Shown: positions 51,933 through 64,000 of the stretch, one piece after another
How positions within the stretch are numbered: the first letter of the stretch is position 1
How the letters are laid out: each line of letters begins with the position of its first letter
NCBI RefSeq assembly: GCF_025263565.1
Contig: NZ_CP079865.1
Span: forward strand, 3,596,001-3,660,000
DNA: 64,000 nt
Origin: Mycobacterium sp. SMC-8
GTDB taxonomy: Bacteria; Actinomycetota; Actinomycetes; Mycobacteriales; Mycobacteriaceae
Direction: 5' to 3'
The notes under the pieces: generated by a model
Databases searched by the model: none
The model's input: the letters and a program-made list of their open reading frames with translations, nothing else
What the model was told of the DNA's origin: nothing
Translations under genes and position numbers: made by a program

Positions 51933-52988
51933 ATGACTGTTCGGGTGCGCACCAGCAGTGACGGCTATGTGATCGATGGCCCGTGGGAGGGGTGCGCAGC
52001 GGCAAACGCATTCCTGGTGCATCTGGCCGGACGCGGGTTCAGTGCGGCGACGGTGCGGGCGTATGCGTTCGATGTGCTCAATCTGGCTCGGTTCCTGCTG
52101 GACCGTGATCTCGCGGTGGCGGCGGTGACGCCGGTGGAGGTGTTCGAGTGGATCGACTGGCAGGATGTGCGCCGTGACCACCGGCGCAGCCCGGCGAGAA
52201 GGAATGGCGGGAGCGCGGCGGCATCGACGGTCAACCGGCGGGTCTCGGCGGTGCGGGCGTTCTTCGAGTACCTGGTGATGACCGGGACGCGCTCCGAGAA
52301 CCCGGTGCCCTCACCGCGGCGCGGGCAGGGGCTGAGACCGGTGGCGCGGGGACTGCTCGGGCATCTGGGCCCGGGTCGGCCTCGGGCCGGAGGCCGGCTG
52401 GTGCGGCAACCGCGGTTACTGCCCGAGTCTCTCGATGCCAATGCAGTCGAGCGGTTCGTGGCGTCGTTGCGAACCCACCGGGATCGGGCGATGGTGTGGG
52501 CGATGCTCTTTGGGGGCCTGCGCAGCGCCGAGGTGCGGTCCTTGCGGTTGGCCGACATCGACTTCGGTCGACGGCGGGTGCGGGTGCTTGGTAAAGGCTC
52601 GAAGGAGCGGGTGGTACCGGTCGATGCAGCATTCTTCACCGAACTGTCGGCCTATCTGCGCCTCGAACGCCCACCAGGGTTGACGACCGAGGAGTGTTTC
52701 GTGGTGCTGCGCGGACCCTCCGCGGGGGCCCCGGTCACCGAGGCCGGACTGCGGTCACTGTTTCGGCGGCACCGAGACCTGTCTGGTGCGACGAGGGTAC
52801 GTCCACACCGGCTGCGCCATACCTACGGCACCGAACTCGCCTCTGCTGGAATCGATCTGATGGCGCTGCGGGAGTTGATGGGCCACGTGTCCCCGGAAAC
52901 CACCGCCGGATATGTGCACCTGTCGGTCGAGCAACTCGCCGCCGAATACGGTGCGGCTCGCGCCAGCCTTGCCGGGACACGACGATGA
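51933..52988 (+). CDS. Tyrosine recombinase, TnpA-like
   Basis: 351 aa. N-terminal SAM-like core-binding domain (about 30-115), then the catalytic domain with Arg in FGGLRSAEVRSLRL, HRLRHTYGTELAS and the tyrosine in GHVSPETTAGYVHLS. It overlaps the next recombinase gene by 4 nt (ATGA), so both are made together. Size is close to Tn554 TnpA (about 361 aa). Confidence 0.88.
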   Translation: MTVRVRTSSDGYVIDGPWEGCAAANAFLVHLAGRGFSAATVRAYAFDVLNLARFLLDRDLAVAAVTPVEVFEWIDWQDVRRDHRRSPARRNGGSAAASTVNRRVSAVRAFFEYLVMTGTRSENPVPSPRRGQGLRPVARGLLGHLGPGRPRAGGRLVRQPRLLPESLDANAVERFVASLRTHRDRAMVWAMLFGGLRSAEVRSLRLADIDFGRRRVRVLGKGSKERVVPVDAAFFTELSAYLRLERPPGLTTEECFVVLRGPSAGAPVTEAGLRSLFRRHRDLSGATRVRPHRLRHTYGTELASAGIDLMALRELMGHVSPETTAGYVHLSVEQLAAEYGAARASLAGTRR

Positions 52989-54940
52989 CCACCCAGACGC
53001 TCGCATCGATGGACCTGCTGGCTGACCCGGATGCGGTGCTGGACGACTATCTCGAACACGTTGCCAGCCTTGGTCTCAGTAGCAGGTCGGTGCGTGGCCG
53101 CACCCGCGGCGCGAGCACCTTCCTGACCGAGCACCCGGATCTGCGGGACTGGATGACCAGACCGGCGGTCGAGCGGTTGGCCGATCTGCGCAACAACGGG
53201 GCCTGGCCACTGCTGTGTCATGTCATTGGCCGGGGCGAGTTGCGCCTCGACCTCGAACTCGCGGCCGTCAAGAACCTCACTGGTCTGGGACGAGCCGTCG
53301 AGGACCGTGACCCGGGCGGATTCGCCGCCGTGCGCACCGCCGGGCTGGCCTTGGGCTGGACACCACAGTGGATCGAGACGGTCTTGGGTGAATGTCTGGC
53401 GGTGCTGCTCGCCTGGCACGGCGGACTCGTCGACGATGTCGACAACGGCACGGTCGACAAGTTCGACACCGCGCTGGCTGCCACACAATCGATTCCGGCA
53501 TCGTCGAGGCGCGCCTACCGCAACCGGATAGCCGGGTTGCGGCAGATGCTTTTTCAGGCTCGCATCGTCGATACACCACCACGGCGGCGGCGTTGGGCCC
53601 GCAGCTACGCCCAACGCTTCGCCGACGTGGCGATGACTGACCTGATCCGGGAGACGCTGCTGCGTTATGTCACCGTCCGGGCATCGGTGCTGCGTCCGAA
53701 ATCCGTCGAATCGTTGATCAACGATTTGCTGCCGTTCGCGGACTATCTCACCACCACTCATCCCGAGCTCACCTCGTTCGGGGATCTGGATCGCAGTCAC
53801 ATCGAGGGTTTCCTGGTCTGGAATCGCGCCCGCACCTGGCGTGGACAACGCGCCGCCGCCGGCGCCGGACGCACCATCTCCAAGGCCGTGATCCAATCGA
53901 CGGTACTGAGCGTGCGCAACCTACTCGACGACATCACCGAATGGGGCTGGGAGCAGGCACCGCCGCGTCGTCTGGTCTTCGCCGTCGATATCCCGAAACT
54001 CGATCAACCCCTGCCGCAGGCCCTACCACCTGATATCGACGCCGCGGTGATGAACGCGGTTGCCCAGCTGGAGGATACGTTCGCCCGCGTCGGGCTGACA
54101 GTGCTTCGCGGGGCAGGGCTGCGGATCGGGGAGCTGCTCGACCTCGAACTCGGCAGCGTCGTCGACTACGGACCCGCCGGCACCTGGTTGAAAGTTCCGT
54201 TGGGCAAGCTCGCCACCGAACGCATGGTTCCGCTCTCGGCCAACACCATTGCCGCATTGGACCAGTGGACCAGCAGACGTGGTGTTTGCCGCCCACTGCC
54301 GCATCCCCGTACCGGAGCGCCTACCGATTTCCTGTTCGTTGCGCACGGCCGCCGTCTCGGACAGACGCGGTTACGCAATGGCCTGCTCGCCGCCATCGAG
54401 TCCTGCGGGCTGCGCGGGACCGGCGGCGCACCGCTGGTGGTAACCCCGCATCAGCTACGCCACACATGGGCCACCGAGCTCGCGAACGCAGGCATGAGCC
54501 TGCAGGCCTTGATGGCACTGCTCGGACATGTCACCCCGCAGATGACTTTGCGTTACGCCACCTTGGCCTCACCGACGCTGCGCGATGCCTATGACCAGGC
54601 CATGGGAAAGATGCGACGACAGTTCACTCTCACTCCGGTCGGCAAACCCATCGTCCCCGATGCGGTCAGCTGGCTCGGTAGTGAGATGCTCAAAACACGT
54701 GTCGCCCACGGCTACTGCGCCCGCCACCACAGTGCCGGCGCCTGCCCCTATGCCAACATCTGCGAAACCTGCGACAACTTCGTCACCGGCCCCGAGTTCC
54801 GAGGCGCACTCGAAGCGCAACGCACCGACATCCAGACTCTCGAAGCAGATGCCCGCGCCCGTGGCTGGCTCGACGAAGCCGCCCGTCACCACCGTGTCGC
54901 CGAGGCGTTGACCGACCACCTGCACCGCCTCGACCGCTGA
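52985..54940 (+). CDS. Tyrosine recombinase, TnpB-like
   Basis: 651 aa from ATG 52985; the longer frame from 52694 lies inside the first recombinase. A long N-terminal extension precedes the catalytic domain with RGAGLRIGELLDLEL, HQLRHTWATELAN and GHVTPQMTLRYATL. The C-terminus has a probable zinc-binding module, CARHHSAGACPYANICETC. Length and layout match Tn554 TnpB (about 630 aa). Confidence 0.88.
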   Translation: MTTQTLASMDLLADPDAVLDDYLEHVASLGLSSRSVRGRTRGASTFLTEHPDLRDWMTRPAVERLADLRNNGAWPLLCHVIGRGELRLDLELAAVKNLTGLGRAVEDRDPGGFAAVRTAGLALGWTPQWIETVLGECLAVLLAWHGGLVDDVDNGTVDKFDTALAATQSIPASSRRAYRNRIAGLRQMLFQARIVDTPPRRRRWARSYAQRFADVAMTDLIRETLLRYVTVRASVLRPKSVESLINDLLPFADYLTTTHPELTSFGDLDRSHIEGFLVWNRARTWRGQRAAAGAGRTISKAVIQSTVLSVRNLLDDITEWGWEQAPPRRLVFAVDIPKLDQPLPQALPPDIDAAVMNAVAQLEDTFARVGLTVLRGAGLRIGELLDLELGSVVDYGPAGTWLKVPLGKLATERMVPLSANTIAALDQWTSRRGVCRPLPHPRTGAPTDFLFVAHGRRLGQTRLRNGLLAAIESCGLRGTGGAPLVVTPHQLRHTWATELANAGMSLQALMALLGHVTPQMTLRYATLASPTLRDAYDQAMGKMRRQFTLTPVGKPIVPDAVSWLGSEMLKTRVAHGYCARHHSAGACPYANICETCDNFVTGPEFRGALEAQRTDIQTLEADARARGWLDEAARHHRVAEALTDHLHRLDR

Positions 54941-54985
54941 CCAATCGACCACCGAGAGTTGATCCGACCCCGAGGGCCGGTTAAG

Positions 54986-56005
54986 TTCCTGGGGATTGTT
55001 GCTCCAGATCTGGCGCCAGATCTGCTTGGGGAACGCGGTGAACGCCAACAGGTCCGGTCGGGCCGCTTCGAGGTGATCGGCCACCTTGGGCAGCTTGTCG
55101 GCGAGCGCGTCGATGATCCGGTCGTATTGTGCAGCAACGGATTCCGCGTCGGGTTGGTCGAACACCGAATGCACTAGGGTGCGTACCCAGGGCCAGGACG
55201 CCTTCGGTGTGACGCTCATCAGATTCGTCGTGTAGTGCGTGCGGCAGCGCTGCCAGGCCGCACCGGGCAGAGTGGCTCCGATCGCGGCCACCAGCCCGGC
55301 GTGGGCGTCACTGGTAACCAGCTTCACCCCAGACAGCCCGCGGGCGGTCAGCGACCGCCAGAACGTCAGCCAGCCCGCGCCGTCCTCGGCGGTGGTGACG
55401 TCGATGCCGAGGATTTCACGGTAGCCCTCGGCGTTGACCCCGACGGCGATCAGGGCGTGCACGTTGACCACCCGGCCCTGCTCGCGGACCTTGAGGACCA
55501 AGGCGTCGGCGGCCACGAACGTGTACGGGCCGGCGTCCAGCGGGCGGGTGCGAAACGCCTCCACGGCGACGTCGAGTTCCTTGGCCATCACCGACACCTG
55601 CGACTTCGACAACGACGTGATGCCGAGAGTTTCGACGAGCTTGTCCATCCGCCGCGTCGAAACCCCGAGCAGGTAGCAGGTCGCGACCACCGTCGTCAGC
55701 GCCCGCTCGGCGCGTTTGCGGCGTTCCAGCAGCCAGTCCGGGAAGTACGAGCCCTGCCGCAGCTTCGGGATTGCGAGATTCAATGTTCCCGCGCGGGTGT
55801 CGAACTGGCGGTGCCGATAGCCGTTGCGGGAGTTGGTCCGCTCAGTGCTGCGCTCGCCGTAGCCGGCGCCGCACAGGGCGTCGGCCTCTGCACCCATCAG
55901 GGTGTGGATGAACGTGGCCAGCAGCTCACGCAGCACGTCAGGGTGCGCTGTGGTGAGTCGTTCGGCAAGCACCGCGGGCAGGTCGATATTGTGGGCAGTG
56001 GTCAT
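54986..56005 (-). pseudogene. IS256-family transposase, N-terminal fragment
   Basis: From ATG 56005 it equals the transposase at 25996 with few changes (for example NAEGYREILG instead of NKEGYREILG) up to IWSNNPQE, where the Tn554-like element begins. The open frame then runs on to 54569 with foreign residues. Confidence 0.88.
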
Positions 56006-56139
56006 CGCGTTGATTCCTTTGCTCGAGTGACTTTGACGGGTCTCTCGAAGAATCACGCGATGACCCTCAATCAGTCGGCTACGACACGCCGGTACCGCTG
56101 ATCAGGTCCGACTCGTACACCACTCTGCTGGACGCAACC

Positions 56140-59119: not shown

Positions 59120-60121
<1,002 letters not shown>

Positions 60122-60209
60122 AGGTCCAGCTCAAGACCATTTTGACACCGACCGAGGCTGCCTTGACCAGATCGGTGATGCCGAACCGCTCTTAGCTCCC
60201 GAGGCCTTC

Positions 60210-60231
60210 TGCCCACATTTTGCCCACATTT
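60210..60231. repeat. 11-bp tandem repeat by the integrase promoter (possible attachment arm sites)
   Basis: TGCCCACATTT occurs twice in direct succession just before the integrase promoter. Tandem arm-type sites next to int are usual in attachment regions. The core attachment site itself cannot be named, because the other end of the element is outside the window. Confidence 0.5.
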
Positions 60232-60234
60232 CTC

Positions 60235-60240
60235 TACGCT
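60235..60240 (+). promoter_or_regulatory. -10 element for a leaderless integrase transcript
   Basis: TACGCT ends 6 bp before GTG 60247. The 11-bp repeats occupy the -15 to -35 region, so integrase binding there could shut off its own promoter. Confidence 0.5.
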
Positions 60241-60246
60241 GTAGGC

Positions 60247-61350
60247 GTGGCAGTCGTGGCGGCATACGAAACAAAGCAGGGCAGGCGTTACCGGGTTCGA
60301 TACCGCACGCCGGACAACCGACAGACCGACAAGCGCGGGTTCAGGACTAAGCGCGAGGCCGAGCGGTTCGCCAACACTGTCGAGGTGGCCAAGATGCGTG
60401 GCGAGTACGTCAACCCCGCCGACGCCCGTCGGACGCTCGACGACCTCGGGCAGGCGTGGCTGGACCGCCAGAAGGGGCACCTGAAGCCGTCCGGGTACGC
60501 CGTCATGGAGACGACCTGGCGCGTGCGGGTGAAGCCGCGATGGGGACATGTCGCGCTGGGGGACATCAAAGCGAGCGCCGTCGGTCACTGGATCGCCGAG
60601 CTAGGTCAGAGCACCGAGGAGGCCACGGCGATCAAGCCTGCGACGATCAAGCGCGCCCACTATGTGCTGGCCCAGATCCTCGCCGACGCCGTGACCGACA
60701 ACCTGATCCCCAAGAATCCCGCCGCCGGTCTGGCGCTGCCCAAAGCGGCGCGCAAGAGGCCGGTGTACCTCGACCATCAACAGGTCGACTCTCTGGCCGA
60801 CAGTGCGGGGGAGAACGGTGCTCTTGTCCTCACGCTGGCTTACACGGGTCTTCGGTGGGGCGAGGCGATCGGTCTGCGGGTGGCAGACCTGGACCTGTTG
60901 CGCAAGCGTGCCCTGATCCACGAAAACGCCGTGCAGTCAGGTACCGACATCCACGTCGGGACCCCCAAGGCGCACAAGCAGCGAGTGGTGCCGCTACCTG
61001 AGTTCCTAGTTCCTCTGCTGGCGCGCCAGTGTGAGAACAAGGGTAGGGGAGATCTGTTGTTCGGCGGAGGCGCGCACCTGCGCCGACCACACCCCGTATC
61101 TGGTTGGTTCGCCAAGGCGGTCACAGCCTCTGGGGTGCCTCGGGTGACGCCGCACGACCTGCGCCACACCGCCGCCTCGCTGGCCATTAGTGCGGGGGCC
61201 AACGTCAAGGCCGTGCAGCGCATGCTTGGTCATGCCTCGGCGGCGATGACCCTGGACATCTACGCCGACCTGTTCGACGACGACTTGGAGGCGGTCGCCA
61301 CCGCTCTGGACAAGGCACGTACCGCCTCTCGGCAAGTGTCCGTTACCTAG
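60247..61350 (+). CDS. int: Site-specific tyrosine integrase
   Basis: 367 aa from GTG 60247; a TTG at 60220 is in frame but lies in the repeats. N-terminal arm-binding domain AYETKQGRRYRVRYRTPDNRQTDKRGFRTKREAERF, core-binding domain (about 70-170), catalytic Arg in YTGLRWGEAIGL, HDLRHTAASLAIS and Tyr in MLGHASAAMTLDIYADLF. It begins 125 bp after nrdF and marks the left end of an integrated element. Confidence 0.93.
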   Translation: MAVVAAYETKQGRRYRVRYRTPDNRQTDKRGFRTKREAERFANTVEVAKMRGEYVNPADARRTLDDLGQAWLDRQKGHLKPSGYAVMETTWRVRVKPRWGHVALGDIKASAVGHWIAELGQSTEEATAIKPATIKRAHYVLAQILADAVTDNLIPKNPAAGLALPKAARKRPVYLDHQQVDSLADSAGENGALVLTLAYTGLRWGEAIGLRVADLDLLRKRALIHENAVQSGTDIHVGTPKAHKQRVVPLPEFLVPLLARQCENKGRGDLLFGGGAHLRRPHPVSGWFAKAVTASGVPRVTPHDLRHTAASLAISAGANVKAVQRMLGHASAAMTLDIYADLFDDDLEAVATALDKARTASRQVSVT

Positions 61351-61410
61351 TTGTGACTATTGGCCGAGGATCTACGACCCTCAGCAAACGACGTGACCTG
61401 AGGGCTAGAT

Positions 61411-61458
61411 CCTTCTAGGTGGCTATAAGTTGGCCGGTCGCTACCTTCTAGGTGCTAT
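61411..61458. repeat. Two copies of CCTTCTAGGTG(G)CTAT
   Basis: Copies start at 61411 and 61444 (33 bp apart) in the gap between int and the excisionase-like gene. They may bind the excisionase-like protein or another regulator of the element. Confidence 0.6.
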
Positions 61459-61515
61459 GCGGGACAGGGCTTTTCGTGCTTTGGCGTGCCGCTTGGTGTC
61501 CGTACCGTTTTGGGC

Positions 61516-61773
61516 ATGTCGCAGCAATCACGGTGCCCTCAAGCGAAAACGGGGCAACTCAACGAGGACCGCCATGCACCGGAGCGTGCAGGTCTCGCCA
61601 AGGCCCGAGAGGTGGCCGAATACCTCAACACAACCCTCAACCAGCTATCGCGGCTGCGGTTCGAGGGTCACGGCCCGCGCTATGTGAAGCTGGGCCGCTC
61701 GGTCCGCTATCGGTGGGAGGACGTCTACGCCTGGGTGGACGAGAACGTCCAGTCCGTAGGGGGTGCCAAGTGA
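61516..61773 (+). CDS. Excisionase-like helix-turn-helix protein
   Basis: 85 aa from ATG 61516; a -10-like TACCGT at 61503 suggests a leaderless transcript. The core LAKAREVAEYLNTTLNQLSRLRFEGHGPRYVKLGRSVRYRWEDVYAWVDEN is a MerR/excisionase-type HTH with winged tail. It probably steers excision or represses the element. Its TGA overlaps the next ATG. Confidence 0.82.
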   Translation: MSQQSRCPQAKTGQLNEDRHAPERAGLAKAREVAEYLNTTLNQLSRLRFEGHGPRYVKLGRSVRYRWEDVYAWVDENVQSVGGAK

Positions 61774-61901
61774 TGGACACCGCACCCTGCCGCGAGCAGG
61801 CTGACCGCGACCGGCTTGCAGACCCCGATCTGCCCGACCTAGACGACCAGGCGGGCGCTGGGCCACACGCCCAGCACGTCGAGGAGCCGAGTCCCTCGTG
61901 A
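61773..61901 (+). CDS. Small acidic protein of the integrated element
   Basis: 42 aa from ATG 61773, overlapping the preceding stop by one base (TGATG). It is very acidic (DRDRLADPDLPDLDDQAGAG). No family is recognised. The coupling to its neighbours on both sides supports translation. Confidence 0.5.
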   Translation: MDTAPCREQADRDRLADPDLPDLDDQAGAGPHAQHVEEPSPS

Positions 61902-62044
61902 GTCCTTCACATGAAGAGAGCCGCCCCGGCAGCAATGCCACCAGGACGGCCCACAAGTCCAACGCCTCGGACTGCAACGAGATTACCCTGGTGGGGTATG
62001 CCGGTACACCTCATCGGGAGGTGACCGATGTCTGCCGCGCTTGA
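61898..62044 (+). CDS. Small protein overlapping the RepA-like gene
   Basis: 48 aa from GTG 61898, which overlaps the previous stop (GTGA); its own end overlaps the next start by 17 nt. It contains NEITLVGYAGTPHREV, faintly like the first strand of single-strand-binding proteins, but is far too short for that fold. It may be a leader or coupling peptide. Confidence 0.35.
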   Translation: MSPSHEESRPGSNATRTAHKSNASDCNEITLVGYAGTPHREVTDVCRA

Positions 62045-63383
62045 AACCAAGCTGCTGAGCCGCATGATGACCGGCCAGGGCATGGCCGAGGTGATCCAGG
62101 CCAAGCTGTCCCCGGAGGTGTTCGAGGACCCGCTCCACCGTGCTGCGTTCGAGCGACTGCTGGCCTACCAGCGTGAGCACGGGATGCAACCGACCATGGT
62201 CGTGCTGGCCGAGGAGTTCCCCTCGGTGCAGATCCCGCACCCGAACGGGGTGGAGGAGGCCGCTGGCTGGCTCGTGGAGGAACTCCAGCGCCGCTATGTC
62301 GTCAACGAGGGCCAGGAGCTATACCGGCGCACCGCTGTGATGCTGTACGACGACCCGGTGGGCACGCTGCGTCAGGTGGCCCAGGATGCCCGCGAGATCG
62401 TCGAGCGCGCCGGGACCAACTGCAAGCTCGACAACGAGTTCCTGACCACCGACCAGCTCGACGAGCTTGAGCCGCCGGAACCGCTGATCGCAGATGTGCT
62501 GTCCCGTCACACCTACGCGATCCTGCGAGGCCGTGATGCGTCCTTCAAGTCATTCGTGGCCCTGGACTGGGGGCTGTGCCTGGCCACCGGCGCGCCATGG
62601 CAGGGCAAGGCCGTGGAGCGGGTCAAGGTGCTCTACATCGCCGCTGAAGGTGCTCACGGCATCGCCCAGCGCGTGCGCGCCTGGGAAGCCGCTCACGACA
62701 TCAAGGTCGACCCCGACTGGTTCGTGGTGCGCCGGTCGGCGGTCAACGTGTTTCGCGCCCGCGACGACTACGCCCACCTGCTGGACCACATCGAGCGCGG
62801 CGGCTACGGGCTGGTCATCGTCGACACGCTGCGCAGGGTGTCCGGTGGTGCCAACGGCAACGACACCGACATGGGCGTGGTCGTTGACAACCTGGACCGA
62901 ATCAAGCGCGCAACCGCCAACGGCTCGGTGCTCGCGGTAGCTCACACCGACAAGGGCGACAACGACACCCGTGGGTTCTCCGGCATCGAGGACGACGCCG
63001 ACACCGTCTGGTCGGCCAAGCGCGAGGCCGACACCAACGAGGTGATCTTGCGGTGCGAGAAGTTCAAGGACGGACCCGACGGGCACCGGTTCGCCCTCGC
63101 CATGCGCAACGAGGCCGACTCGCTGGTCGTCGAAGGCCAGACCGCGAGCAGATCCCCGTTCGGCGATGAGACAGTCGCTGCACAGCGGCTGATGGCCACG
63201 ATGCGAGAGACGTTCTCCAACAACGTCAAGGGTGCATCGGTCCCTGATCTGATCGTGATGACCGGGTTGTCTCGCGCCACGGTCTACCGCTGGCGCACGA
63301 CCGAGATCCAACGGGGGCGCATCCGCGAGGACGCCAGAGGCAACCTGCACCTGGTCGCCCGCCAAGAGGCCATCGATGGGTAG
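62028..63383 (+). CDS. RepA-like AAA/RecA-fold ATPase with DnaB-type N-terminus
   Basis: 451 aa. N-terminal DnaB-like helical domain (LETKLLSRMMTGQGMAEVIQAKLSPEVFEDPLHRAAFERLLAYQ, about 5-100), then a RecA/RepA-type ATPase with an unusual phosphate loop LRGRDASFKSF, Walker B GYGLVIVDTLRR and the sensor VLAVAHTDKGDNDTRG. The C-terminus (about 395-450) is a winged helix, SVPDLIVMTGLSRATVYRW. Such proteins load or act as replicative helicases in plasmids and phage satellites. An iteron-like array follows directly. Confidence 0.8.
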   Translation: MSAALETKLLSRMMTGQGMAEVIQAKLSPEVFEDPLHRAAFERLLAYQREHGMQPTMVVLAEEFPSVQIPHPNGVEEAAGWLVEELQRRYVVNEGQELYRRTAVMLYDDPVGTLRQVAQDAREIVERAGTNCKLDNEFLTTDQLDELEPPEPLIADVLSRHTYAILRGRDASFKSFVALDWGLCLATGAPWQGKAVERVKVLYIAAEGAHGIAQRVRAWEAAHDIKVDPDWFVVRRSAVNVFRARDDYAHLLDHIERGGYGLVIVDTLRRVSGGANGNDTDMGVVVDNLDRIKRATANGSVLAVAHTDKGDNDTRGFSGIEDDADTVWSAKREADTNEVILRCEKFKDGPDGHRFALAMRNEADSLVVEGQTASRSPFGDETVAAQRLMATMRETFSNNVKGASVPDLIVMTGLSRATVYRWRTTEIQRGRIREDARGNLHLVARQEAIDG

Positions 63384-63725
63384 CCAGATGCTGTCTCATC
63401 GCCGTAAGACACCCGTGAGACTGTGCAGGTCAGAGCGTTGCACTCTCTCAACCTGTCTCAAGCCTCTGACCTGCGAAGTCTCATCGTCTCTTATTCCGGT
63501 GAGACAGGCAGTCCCAGGGCAGTCTCACGGGCTCTACGCCTCTGACCAGCGCAGTCTCAGCAGTCTCATCGCTGTCTCATCCTCAGTCTCACCGCTGTCT
63601 CACAGGCGAGCGTGTCTATGGAATAGACACGCAGCGAGCCGGAAGGGTTTGAGACGACTCTCCAAGATCTCCTGGGAGGCCAACGACCCCGGTCCCTGGC
63701 CTTCAACACCGAAGGGCACCCGAGC
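63384..63725. other. Iteron-like replication-origin candidate
   Basis: Non-coding stretch with nine GTCTCA (63393, 63455, 63478, 63522, 63554, 63563, 63574, 63586, 63597) and three TGAGAC (63416, 63500, 63650) in 263 bp; chance would give about 0.1. The last five direct copies are 9-12 bp apart, one per helical turn. A palindrome follows at 63611. Together with the RepA-like gene upstream this looks like an origin. Confidence 0.65.
63611..63631. repeat. Perfect palindrome within the origin candidate
   Basis: CGTGTCTAT and ATAGACACG, 9 bp each with a 3-bp centre. It is next to the phased GTCTCA cluster and is more AT-rich than its surroundings. Confidence 0.85.
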
Positions 63726-63869
63726 ATGACCACCTCCTGGCTGACCAACCTGACGCTGTTCGCCATGAGCTATGCCCTGGCCACCTCCTGGTACCACGCC
63801 ACTGCGATCTATACCGGAAAAGTTCTAGCCGCCAACATCTTTCGACCGAGAGGAACGCCCGCACCATGA
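63726..63869 (+). CDS. Small protein of the integrated element
   Basis: 47 aa from ATG 63726: TTSWLTNLTLFAMSYALAT, then SWYHATAIYTGKVLAANIF, hydrophobic enough for a membrane association, and a basic RPRGTPAP end. Its TGA overlaps the next ATG (ATGA), supporting translation. Function unknown. Confidence 0.5.
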   Translation: MTTSWLTNLTLFAMSYALATSWYHATAIYTGKVLAANIFRPRGTPAP

Positions 63870-64000
63870 CCGACGACCATGACGACGACCAGGAGGCCCG
63901 CGAGTACGCGAGGGCGCTGTTCGCCAACGTCGAGCCCCGACCACCTCGTGACGTCGTGCCCACCCCTGGGCTGACCCGTGTGGCCATGGAACGCCAGTCC
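63866..64000 (+). CDS. Hypothetical protein, 5' part, cut by the window end
   Basis: 45 codons are visible from ATG 63866, after a GAGAGGAA ribosome site at 63848. It starts with an acidic TDDHDDDQEAREYARALFANV stretch and continues VEPRPPRDVVPTPGLTRVAM. The style is that of short phage or plasmid proteins in mycobacteria. The rest lies outside. Confidence 0.55.
   Translation, partial: MTDDHDDDQEAREYARALFANVEPRPPRDVVPTPGLTRVAMERQS

Follow-up and report, generated by a model that had tools for sequence, protein, structure and literature searches.

The final part of a 64,000-nucleotide stretch of Mycobacterium sp. SMC-8 DNA (contig NZ_CP079865.1, positions 3,596,001 to 3,660,000; hereafter the window) belongs to an integrated and probably satellite-type element, in which the stretch 63393–63655 is read here as a candidate replication origin acting in cis and the gene immediately 5' of it as encoding its putative self-loading initiator-helicase. 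A probability of about 0.83 is assigned to this reading, which draws on sequence comparison. The position of an array of short repeats directly behind the helicase gene, the recurrence of such arrays behind homologous genes, the layout of the repeats around a hairpin, and the computed agreement of the repeat unit with the predicted recognition helix of the helicase are all consistent with an origin to which the element's own helicase binds, and in this respect support the original prediction, made from the letters of the window, that the integrated element contains an origin.

Exact counting finds twelve GTCTCA/TGAGAC hexamers within 263 bp, of which nine read GTCTCA on the plus strand (63393, 63455, 63478, 63522, 63554, 63563, 63574, 63586, and 63597) and three are inverted (63416, 63500, and 63650). 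The final five direct copies are spaced by 9, 11, 12, and 11 bp, and the first unit begins 9 bp 3' of the stop codon of the helicase gene. No other hexamer exceeds 8 copies in any 263-bp stretch of the window, and in 2000 first-order Markov sequences modeled on the array region itself the maximum is 4 copies for GTCTCA and 9 for any hexamer. The count of twelve and the phasing of the late direct copies at about 11 bp, both part of the original prediction, are confirmed. GTCTCA is not enriched across the window as a whole (25 observed versus 33.6 expected), and the spacers between the twelve units have diverged. GC content in 60-bp windows over 63380–63709 is 53–63%, and no AT-rich region was found there between the two sets of iterons, where a hairpin lies instead. 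The array DNA has no match among phage and plasmid records, and a search of 60000–64000 with Rfam at gathering scores gives no match. A mechanically called open reading frame (ORF) across the array, 63376–63729, has no family match in Pfam or PHROG and was not accepted as a gene.

That the array directly follows a gene for a DnaB/RepA-like ATPase is likewise borne out. The product matches Pfam AAA_25 with an E-value of 1e-32; a DnaB N-terminal match and weak helix-turn-helix (HTH) matches at residues 401–429 fall below the curated cut-offs, and the PHROG matches include phage primases and helicases. In the AlphaFold2 model (mean predicted local distance difference test score, pLDDT, 71), the N-terminus is helical, the loops of the RecA-type core are poorly predicted, and the C-terminus forms a winged helix whose recognition helix, residues 416–428, has a pLDDT of about 80. 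The top Foldseek matches for this model are DnaB helicases (E 3e-8) with low overall template modeling scores of about 0.25, and a search of solved structures by sequence returned nothing relevant. The P-loop at residues 168–175, GRDASFKS, is without the usual Gly before Lys-Ser, and Gly168, Arg169, Asp170, Phe173, Lys174, and Ser175 are invariant across 15 aligned sequences including that of the window. Some AAA_25 relatives carry the Prim-Pol domain PF09250, presumably the Pfam family to which the primase of pRN1 belongs.

The hairpin at 63610–63632, GTGTCTAT-GGA-ATAGACAC, matches GTGTCTATAGAAGACAC at the equivalent place in Mycolicibacterium arenosum; it had been described as a perfect palindrome with 9-bp arms, and the arms are in fact 10 bp long and perfect, separated by a 3-nt spacer. 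When the DNA of 63595–63657 is folded, a stem formed by the last direct GTCTCA and the inverted unit at 63650 closes around the hairpin (z −4.9; 0 of 200 shuffled sequences equally stable). Among the loci of homologous genes, a GC-rich hairpin with a TTTA, TATA, TTAA, or TAAA tip is present in 32 of 81 downstream regions versus 0 of 78 upstream regions, with 0.05 expected. It commonly lies between two groups of units, and the stem varies while the tip TTTA, TATA, or similar recurs. The majority orientation of the units is opposite on the two sides of the hairpin in 25 of 27 scorable loci, including the window, the hairpin of which was added manually to this count. The hairpin might alternatively be merely the transcription terminator of the repA gene, with the repeats alone forming the origin, a possibility that is unlikely but carries appreciable weight: the hairpin follows closely behind the gene and is GC-rich in most relatives, and actinobacterial terminators often have no U-tract. 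Against a terminator stand the absence of any terminator-like site in the window stretch 63300–63900, the recurrence of the tip despite variation of the stem, and the placement of the hairpin between opposed iteron arms. In three further loci (L184, L185, and L186) TTATAA or CTATAG hairpin tips were seen by eye after the gene together with no detectable iteron cluster, which may mean that conservation is greater for the hairpin than for the repeats.

A scan of genome contigs yielded three relatives, the closest being that of M. arenosum (locus L001) at 54% identity. Relatives were found in 32 of 396 genomes at the level of the genus, 25 of 397 at that of the order, and, at a stricter E-value, 17 of 401 at that of the family, and a search with an alignment as query gave matches in 15 of 394 class-level genomes; the four genome sets overlap. 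The 300 bp behind the stop codon of the homologous gene contain a hexamer cluster (Markov p ≤ 0.01, a threshold at which fewer than one of 62 loci is expected by chance) in 39 of 62 distinct loci; the corresponding count for upstream regions is 0 of 56. This count omits L017, L041, and L053, which have too little sequence, and the duplicates L004 (identical to L002) and L008 (identical to L001); of 80 viral loci, nine entered the cluster count, L004, which had been found earlier, and eight new ones. The units differ among loci and include GTCTCA, TTCTCA, TGTCCACC, TCTCCACC, CTCGCCAC, TGTCCG, and GTCCCA. Within one clade (L014, L026, L028, L029, L031, and L044) the spacing is similar and the units differ, with units about 8, 17, 27, and 48 bp past the stop codon and, in most members, again from about 75 bp. 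The original prediction regarded absence of the array from close relatives as evidence against it; GTCTCA is indeed missing at the equivalent place in M. arenosum, but arrays of TTCTCA and TTATCA stand there instead, so that the objection applies only to the letter. A second M. arenosum locus (L009) encodes a 640-residue distant AAA-type relative followed by a CGCGAA array of 8 copies in 300 bp, and M. arenosum appears to harbor two replicons of this sort that differ in unit. No array was found after the RepA-like gene in the large phages Dove, Upyo, MakoManhole, and Quesadilla or in L182 and L183, while in EBPR siphovirus 5 an array does follow it. In the large mycobacteriophage relatives L138 (Dove), L182, and L183, which lack a significant array, the recognition helix is altered (TQTGLAK, TQSSLAR).

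The repeat unit follows the predicted recognition helix better than it follows kinship of the ATPase. Over 30 loci (35 aligned rows minus the duplicate L008, the weak arrays of L046 and L050, and the other helix form of L063 and L152), the distance between units tracks the distance between helices once ATPase distance is corrected for (partial Mantel r 0.34, p 0.0002), whereas the converse correlation of unit with ATPase distance, corrected for the helix, is r 0.19 (p 0.01). Proteins with Arg or Lys at helix position 2 are accompanied by GTCTCA in 11 of 12 cases, compared to 0 of 18 others (Fisher p 2e-7), the exception being L047 with the unit GTCCCA, and all 11 loci having at least four GTCTCA copies encode Arg or Lys as the second helix residue. 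On the ATPase tree the GTCTCA label requires 9 changes versus a mean of 9.2 for shuffled labels; it is thus scattered over the tree and is not explained by kinship. The window and M. arenosum proteins are 70% identical in the ATPase and differ in helix, SRATVYR versus SQASIYR, and in unit, GTCTCA versus TTCTCA. These paired differences would be expected if Arg reads G and Gln reads A, as is general in protein-DNA contacts. The ten other GTCTCA loci have an ATPase identity to the window of only 36–44%, and all have Arg or Lys.

Viral contigs drawn by DNA pattern alone, with 120 contigs used per unit set from sets that are not exhaustive, provide a view that does not begin from the protein. Among the 120 listed contigs with three GTCTCA, at least 37 contain a cluster of at least 6 copies; at least 17 of those 37 have an ORF of 180 or more codons that ends just 5' of the cluster. 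An Arg helix is present in 6 of the 17 listed ORFs, in L301, L312, L336, L364, and L390 by the pattern xR[AP]Tx[YH]R and in L327 by eye. Each of these six proteins belongs to the AAA_25 family, as judged from Pfam searches that covered 9 of the 79 ORFs from these scans. The helix pattern occurs in 5 of 17 GTCTCA ORFs versus 0 of 62 ORFs of three other units (p 3e-4, contigs listed); L312 and L336, which are alike over much of the C-terminus, were both missed by tblastn with family queries (80 of 120 loci scanned). L301 and L364 also have a hairpin with a CTATAG tip, identified by eye. In the TTCTCAC set, with 12 ORFs among the contigs listed, the AAA_25 protein L735 has the predicted Gln (SQATLYR). 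A long ORF ends just 5' of GTCCCA clusters in 37 of 67 cases among the contigs listed, and the sole GTCCCAC-set protein examined, L572, is a VapE-type helicase with a Toprim domain, an instance of arrays following a different helicase family.

Several results weigh against an origin recognized through the helix of its own helicase, or against parts of the evidence for it. No significant cluster is present in 23 of the 62 loci. The association of Arg or Lys with GTCTCA is not a blind test, since the choice of helix position was made by eye when the units were already known, and inclusion of the omitted Lys rows L046 and L050, which are without TGAGAC, gives 11 of 14. Branch support in the ATPase tree is modest, and only four contrasts are well supported, of which three agree, none disagrees, and one is uninformative. 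Only one unit lies to the right of the hairpin in the window, and the window's own hairpin falls outside the tip rule used for the hairpin count; right-hand units in some loci run into the stem of the hairpin, and opposed orientation and hairpin are therefore not fully independent. In the scans by DNA pattern, the helix pattern was set after L301, L312, L336, and L364 had been seen, so that only L390 is new, and a looser pattern also matched L315 and L334 in the GTCTCA set and L445 and L498 in the TGTCCAC set (one with Lys), none of them counted. Another AAA_25 protein of the TTCTCAC set, L759, has Asp, and helix predictions for TGTCCAC and GTCCCAC arrays were not borne out (0 of 13 and 0 of 37 listed ORFs, respectively, have such a helix). 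Finally, the strict rule that Arg or Lys at helix position 2 entails TGAGAC, which held in 11 of the 12 loci that formed it, failed on later loci (18 of the 80 viral loci examined, with L192 running off the contig end, and 10 of the 15 class-level loci, the other five being already in hand). Arg/Lys loci with other units are L263 and L265 (TGGGAC), L262 (TGGGAA), and L187 (CGAGAC); L186 (Lys) is without an array and L264 (Gln) is without a significant one. The simple rule is thus too strict.

The later loci retain part of the pattern. The GAC end of the unit is kept in three of the four later Arg/Lys arrays. In a refinement made post hoc, Arg or Lys followed by Ala or Ser goes with TGAGAC in 11 of 15 loci, the exceptions being L047, L262, L187, and L186, in the last two of which the final Arg of the helix is replaced by another residue. 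Where Thr is the next residue after Arg or Lys, TGGGA is found in 4 of 4 loci (L046, L050, L263, and L265), of which L046 and L050 have weak arrays of 4 copies. A test on a His helix was upheld in L179 (unit TGGACA), and L180 is not independent, its C-terminus being identical to that of L023.

In the mechanism proposed for a candidate origin of this kind, the C-terminal winged helix would read each GTCTCA unit after excision of the element, with Arg416 at the start of the recognition helix probably contacting the G of the unit. Several copies of the initiator would assemble on the iteron arms flanking the hairpin, and the duplex would open at the hairpin. RecA-type rings would then load, the initiator-helicase loading itself, and a host or helper polymerase would take over replication of the excised element; a helicase of the DnaB/RepA type may be able to do without a separate loader. 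The role of the hairpin, whether in strand opening, in extrusion, or as a priming site in the exposed strand, is the least certain part of this model.

Repeats bound by a self-encoded HTH protein could instead be regulatory, and some iteron initiators are autoregulatory. An operator or silencer bound by the helicase or by the excisionase-like HTH protein, controlling its own operon or downstream genes rather than serving as an origin, is nevertheless improbable, as the clusters, where present, come after the helicase gene and in none of the 56 upstream regions, no sigma-70-type promoter was found at 63300–63900 in a search that covers mycobacterial promoters poorly, and a hairpin between opposed arms is nearer to known origins than to known operators. 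A partition centromere resembling parS, or another segregation or packaging site, has a precedent in mycobacteriophage parS sites, described in the cited passages as arrays of 8-bp direct repeats, one of them directly downstream of repA in Miko and Rachaly (PMC7157519). The agreement of the unit with the helicase's own recognition helix and the absence of any ParA or ParB match among four window ORFs scanned with Pfam and PHROG make this reading very improbable here. That the repeats are decayed remnants or a functionless expansion is scarcely credible given twelve exact copies in 263 bp with diverged spacers and recurrence with differing units that agree with the helix, even though the element is cut by the window and its activity is not judgeable.

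Features of the element within the window are collected in the table below. The integrase gene lies just downstream of the host gene 59147–60121, presumably that of the ribonucleotide reductase small subunit; its mechanically assigned start is TTG, and GTG at 60247 is the likelier start. Similarity to other genomes of the genus, of which 24 of 26 match, stops at the stop codon of this host gene or at most 12 bases beyond it. Placement of the left end of the element at this point was dropped, because the downstream sequence differs among the six genomes shown and the end of similarity therefore does not fix the left end. A tandem direct repeat, TGCCCACATTT, occurs twice at 60210–60231, just before the integrase gene, and possibly represents arm sites of the integrase or part of the attachment site. 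No tRNA genes were found in the window, which stops short of the right end of the element. The first 45 residues of the next element gene are 43% identical over 42 aligned positions to the product of L001:11986-12333, the gene in the equivalent position of the M. arenosum element (E 3e-6 in a single comparison).

Features of the integrated element in the window (window coordinates)
Feature	Position	Strand	Description
Tyrosine integrase gene	60220..61350	+	Pfam Phage_integrase 8e-24; PHROG integrase 4e-74
HTH_17/excisionase-like gene	61486..61773	+	Pfam HTH_17 2e-5 (below gathering cut-off); PHROG excisionase/regulator 3.5e-5
RepA-like helicase-initiator gene (putative), 451 residues	62028..63383	+	DnaB-N-like helical domain, RecA/AAA_25 ATPase at residues 139-311, C-terminal winged helix
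Predicted recognition helix, codons 416-428	63273..63311	+	starts R-A-T-V-Y-R, preceded by Ser415; AlphaFold2 model, covaries with repeat unit
Left iteron arm	63393..63602	+	11 of the 12 GTCTCA/TGAGAC units, 9 of these in + orientation
Hairpin	63610..63632		10-bp arms, 3-nt spacer, core GTGTCTAT/ATAGACAC; counterpart in M. arenosum GGGTGTCTATAGAAGACACCC
Right iteron	63650..63655	-	inverted, TGAGAC on + strand
Next element gene, start only	63866..64000	+	cut by window end; resembles M. arenosum gene L001:11986-12333

The M. arenosum element of L001, presumably flanked by riboflavin genes, encodes an integrase along with a major head protein and a head-tail adaptor, all in a stretch of about 6 kb. 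Selected ORFs were scanned in five of twelve further loci: L277 and L284 have a tyrosine integrase and a major head protein, L274 has a head maturation protease, and L275 and L282 have a serine integrase and no head gene among the ORFs tested. The element of the window, which has an integrase, is probably of the capsid-bearing kind described as candidate phage-inducible chromosomal islands (PICIs), that is, of satellite type; since the window stops before any capsid gene, the element itself is not placed among them. Elsewhere in the window, two adjacent tyrosine-recombinase-like ORFs (51933–52988 and 52694–54940) and a third ORF (54569–56056), similar to an IS256-type transposase but with a C-terminus foreign to it, all recognized by eye, are judged in the same way to form a second, separate mobile remnant at 51933–56056.

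Iteron-based rep-ori modules of satellites are already known, and what is new here is the combination of a DnaB/RepA-type helicase, a recurring hairpin tip, and a pattern of specificity at the level of the helix. A literature search found no description of mycobacterial satellite origins, of the hairpin, or of the agreement between helix and repeat, which is weak evidence of absence as most subscription journals lie outside its coverage. More broadly, and at somewhat less than even odds, a single ancient design of origin (opposed hexamer arms around a hairpin with a TTTA/TATA-type tip) may be common to the AAA_25 helicase-initiators of satellites and phages, perhaps far outside Actinobacteria, together with a winged-helix code in which Arg or Lys at residue 2 specifies G, and Gln specifies A or T, at the first base of the unit. 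If such a code holds, few substitutions would change replication specificity and many compatible replicon types could run on one machine. If the origin reading is correct, mycobacterial satellite origins would be locatable from sequence alone, compatibility between elements would be predictable, and the natural series of helix-repeat pairs would allow a direct test of an initiator-origin code; the recurring hairpin tip would be a precise place to seek strand opening or priming by a helicase of the DnaB/RepA type.

The closest likeness among the published passages cited here is to the rep-ori modules of PICIs, both the Staphylococcus aureus pathogenicity islands (SaPIs) and those of Gram-negative hosts, in which the gene of a self-encoded initiator helicase is directly followed on its 3' side by the origin, a central region has on either side a set of short iterons whose sequences are given for each element separately, the C-terminal domain of the SaPI Rep recognizes the origin much as the predicted winged helix may do here, and the cloned rep-ori drives plasmid replication (PMC6092414, PMC7581432). 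By sequence, the succession of initiator gene and candidate iteron origin used as a PICI criterion is found in the window as well. The two differ in that SaPI Reps are related to DUF927 or D5/Primase_Cterm-type helicases (PMC7581432), whereas the ATPase of the window is of the DnaB/RepA-type AAA_25 family, and in that a hairpin, of a kind whose tip recurs among the loci, replaces the AT-rich region of the PICI origin. Candidate PICIs of Mycobacterium, including phiRv1 and phiRv2, are defined by an integrase and a major capsid protein, some having a helicase, a definition that the M. arenosum element and those of L277 and L284 fit; the main text of that account contains neither "iteron" nor "RepA", and the passages cited here describe no origin for these elements (PMC10654092).

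The RepA/RepB'/RepC system of RSF1010 likewise combines a RepA helicase with iterons and with short hairpins that, when unwound, serve as priming sites, but there a separate RepC recognizes the iterons (PMC4234260), whereas in the window the winged helix is predicted to be fused to the helicase and no separate RepC-like gene was found among the four ORFs scanned with Pfam and PHROG. ORF904 of pRN1 resembles the window protein in its C-terminal winged helix and in an essential stem-loop 3' of the gene, and differs in being a superfamily 3 helicase with a 100-nt stem-loop and no iterons (PMC4234260). In the Vibrio satellites known as phage-inducible chromosomal island-like elements (PLEs), the DNA-binding domain of the RepA initiator and the origin covary and work only as cognate pairs; the initiator is a RepA_N protein not predicted to be a helicase, with three iterons of about 30 bp and two replicon types among five PLEs (PMC8263062, PMC7145576). 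Unlike this system, the arrays described here consist of hexamers with many units, and the change of unit is traceable to residues of one helix. In PLEs, the force behind origin change appears to be a phage nuclease that mimics the initiator (PMC8263062), and a similar conflict could, as a conjecture by analogy, lie behind the diversity of units observed here.

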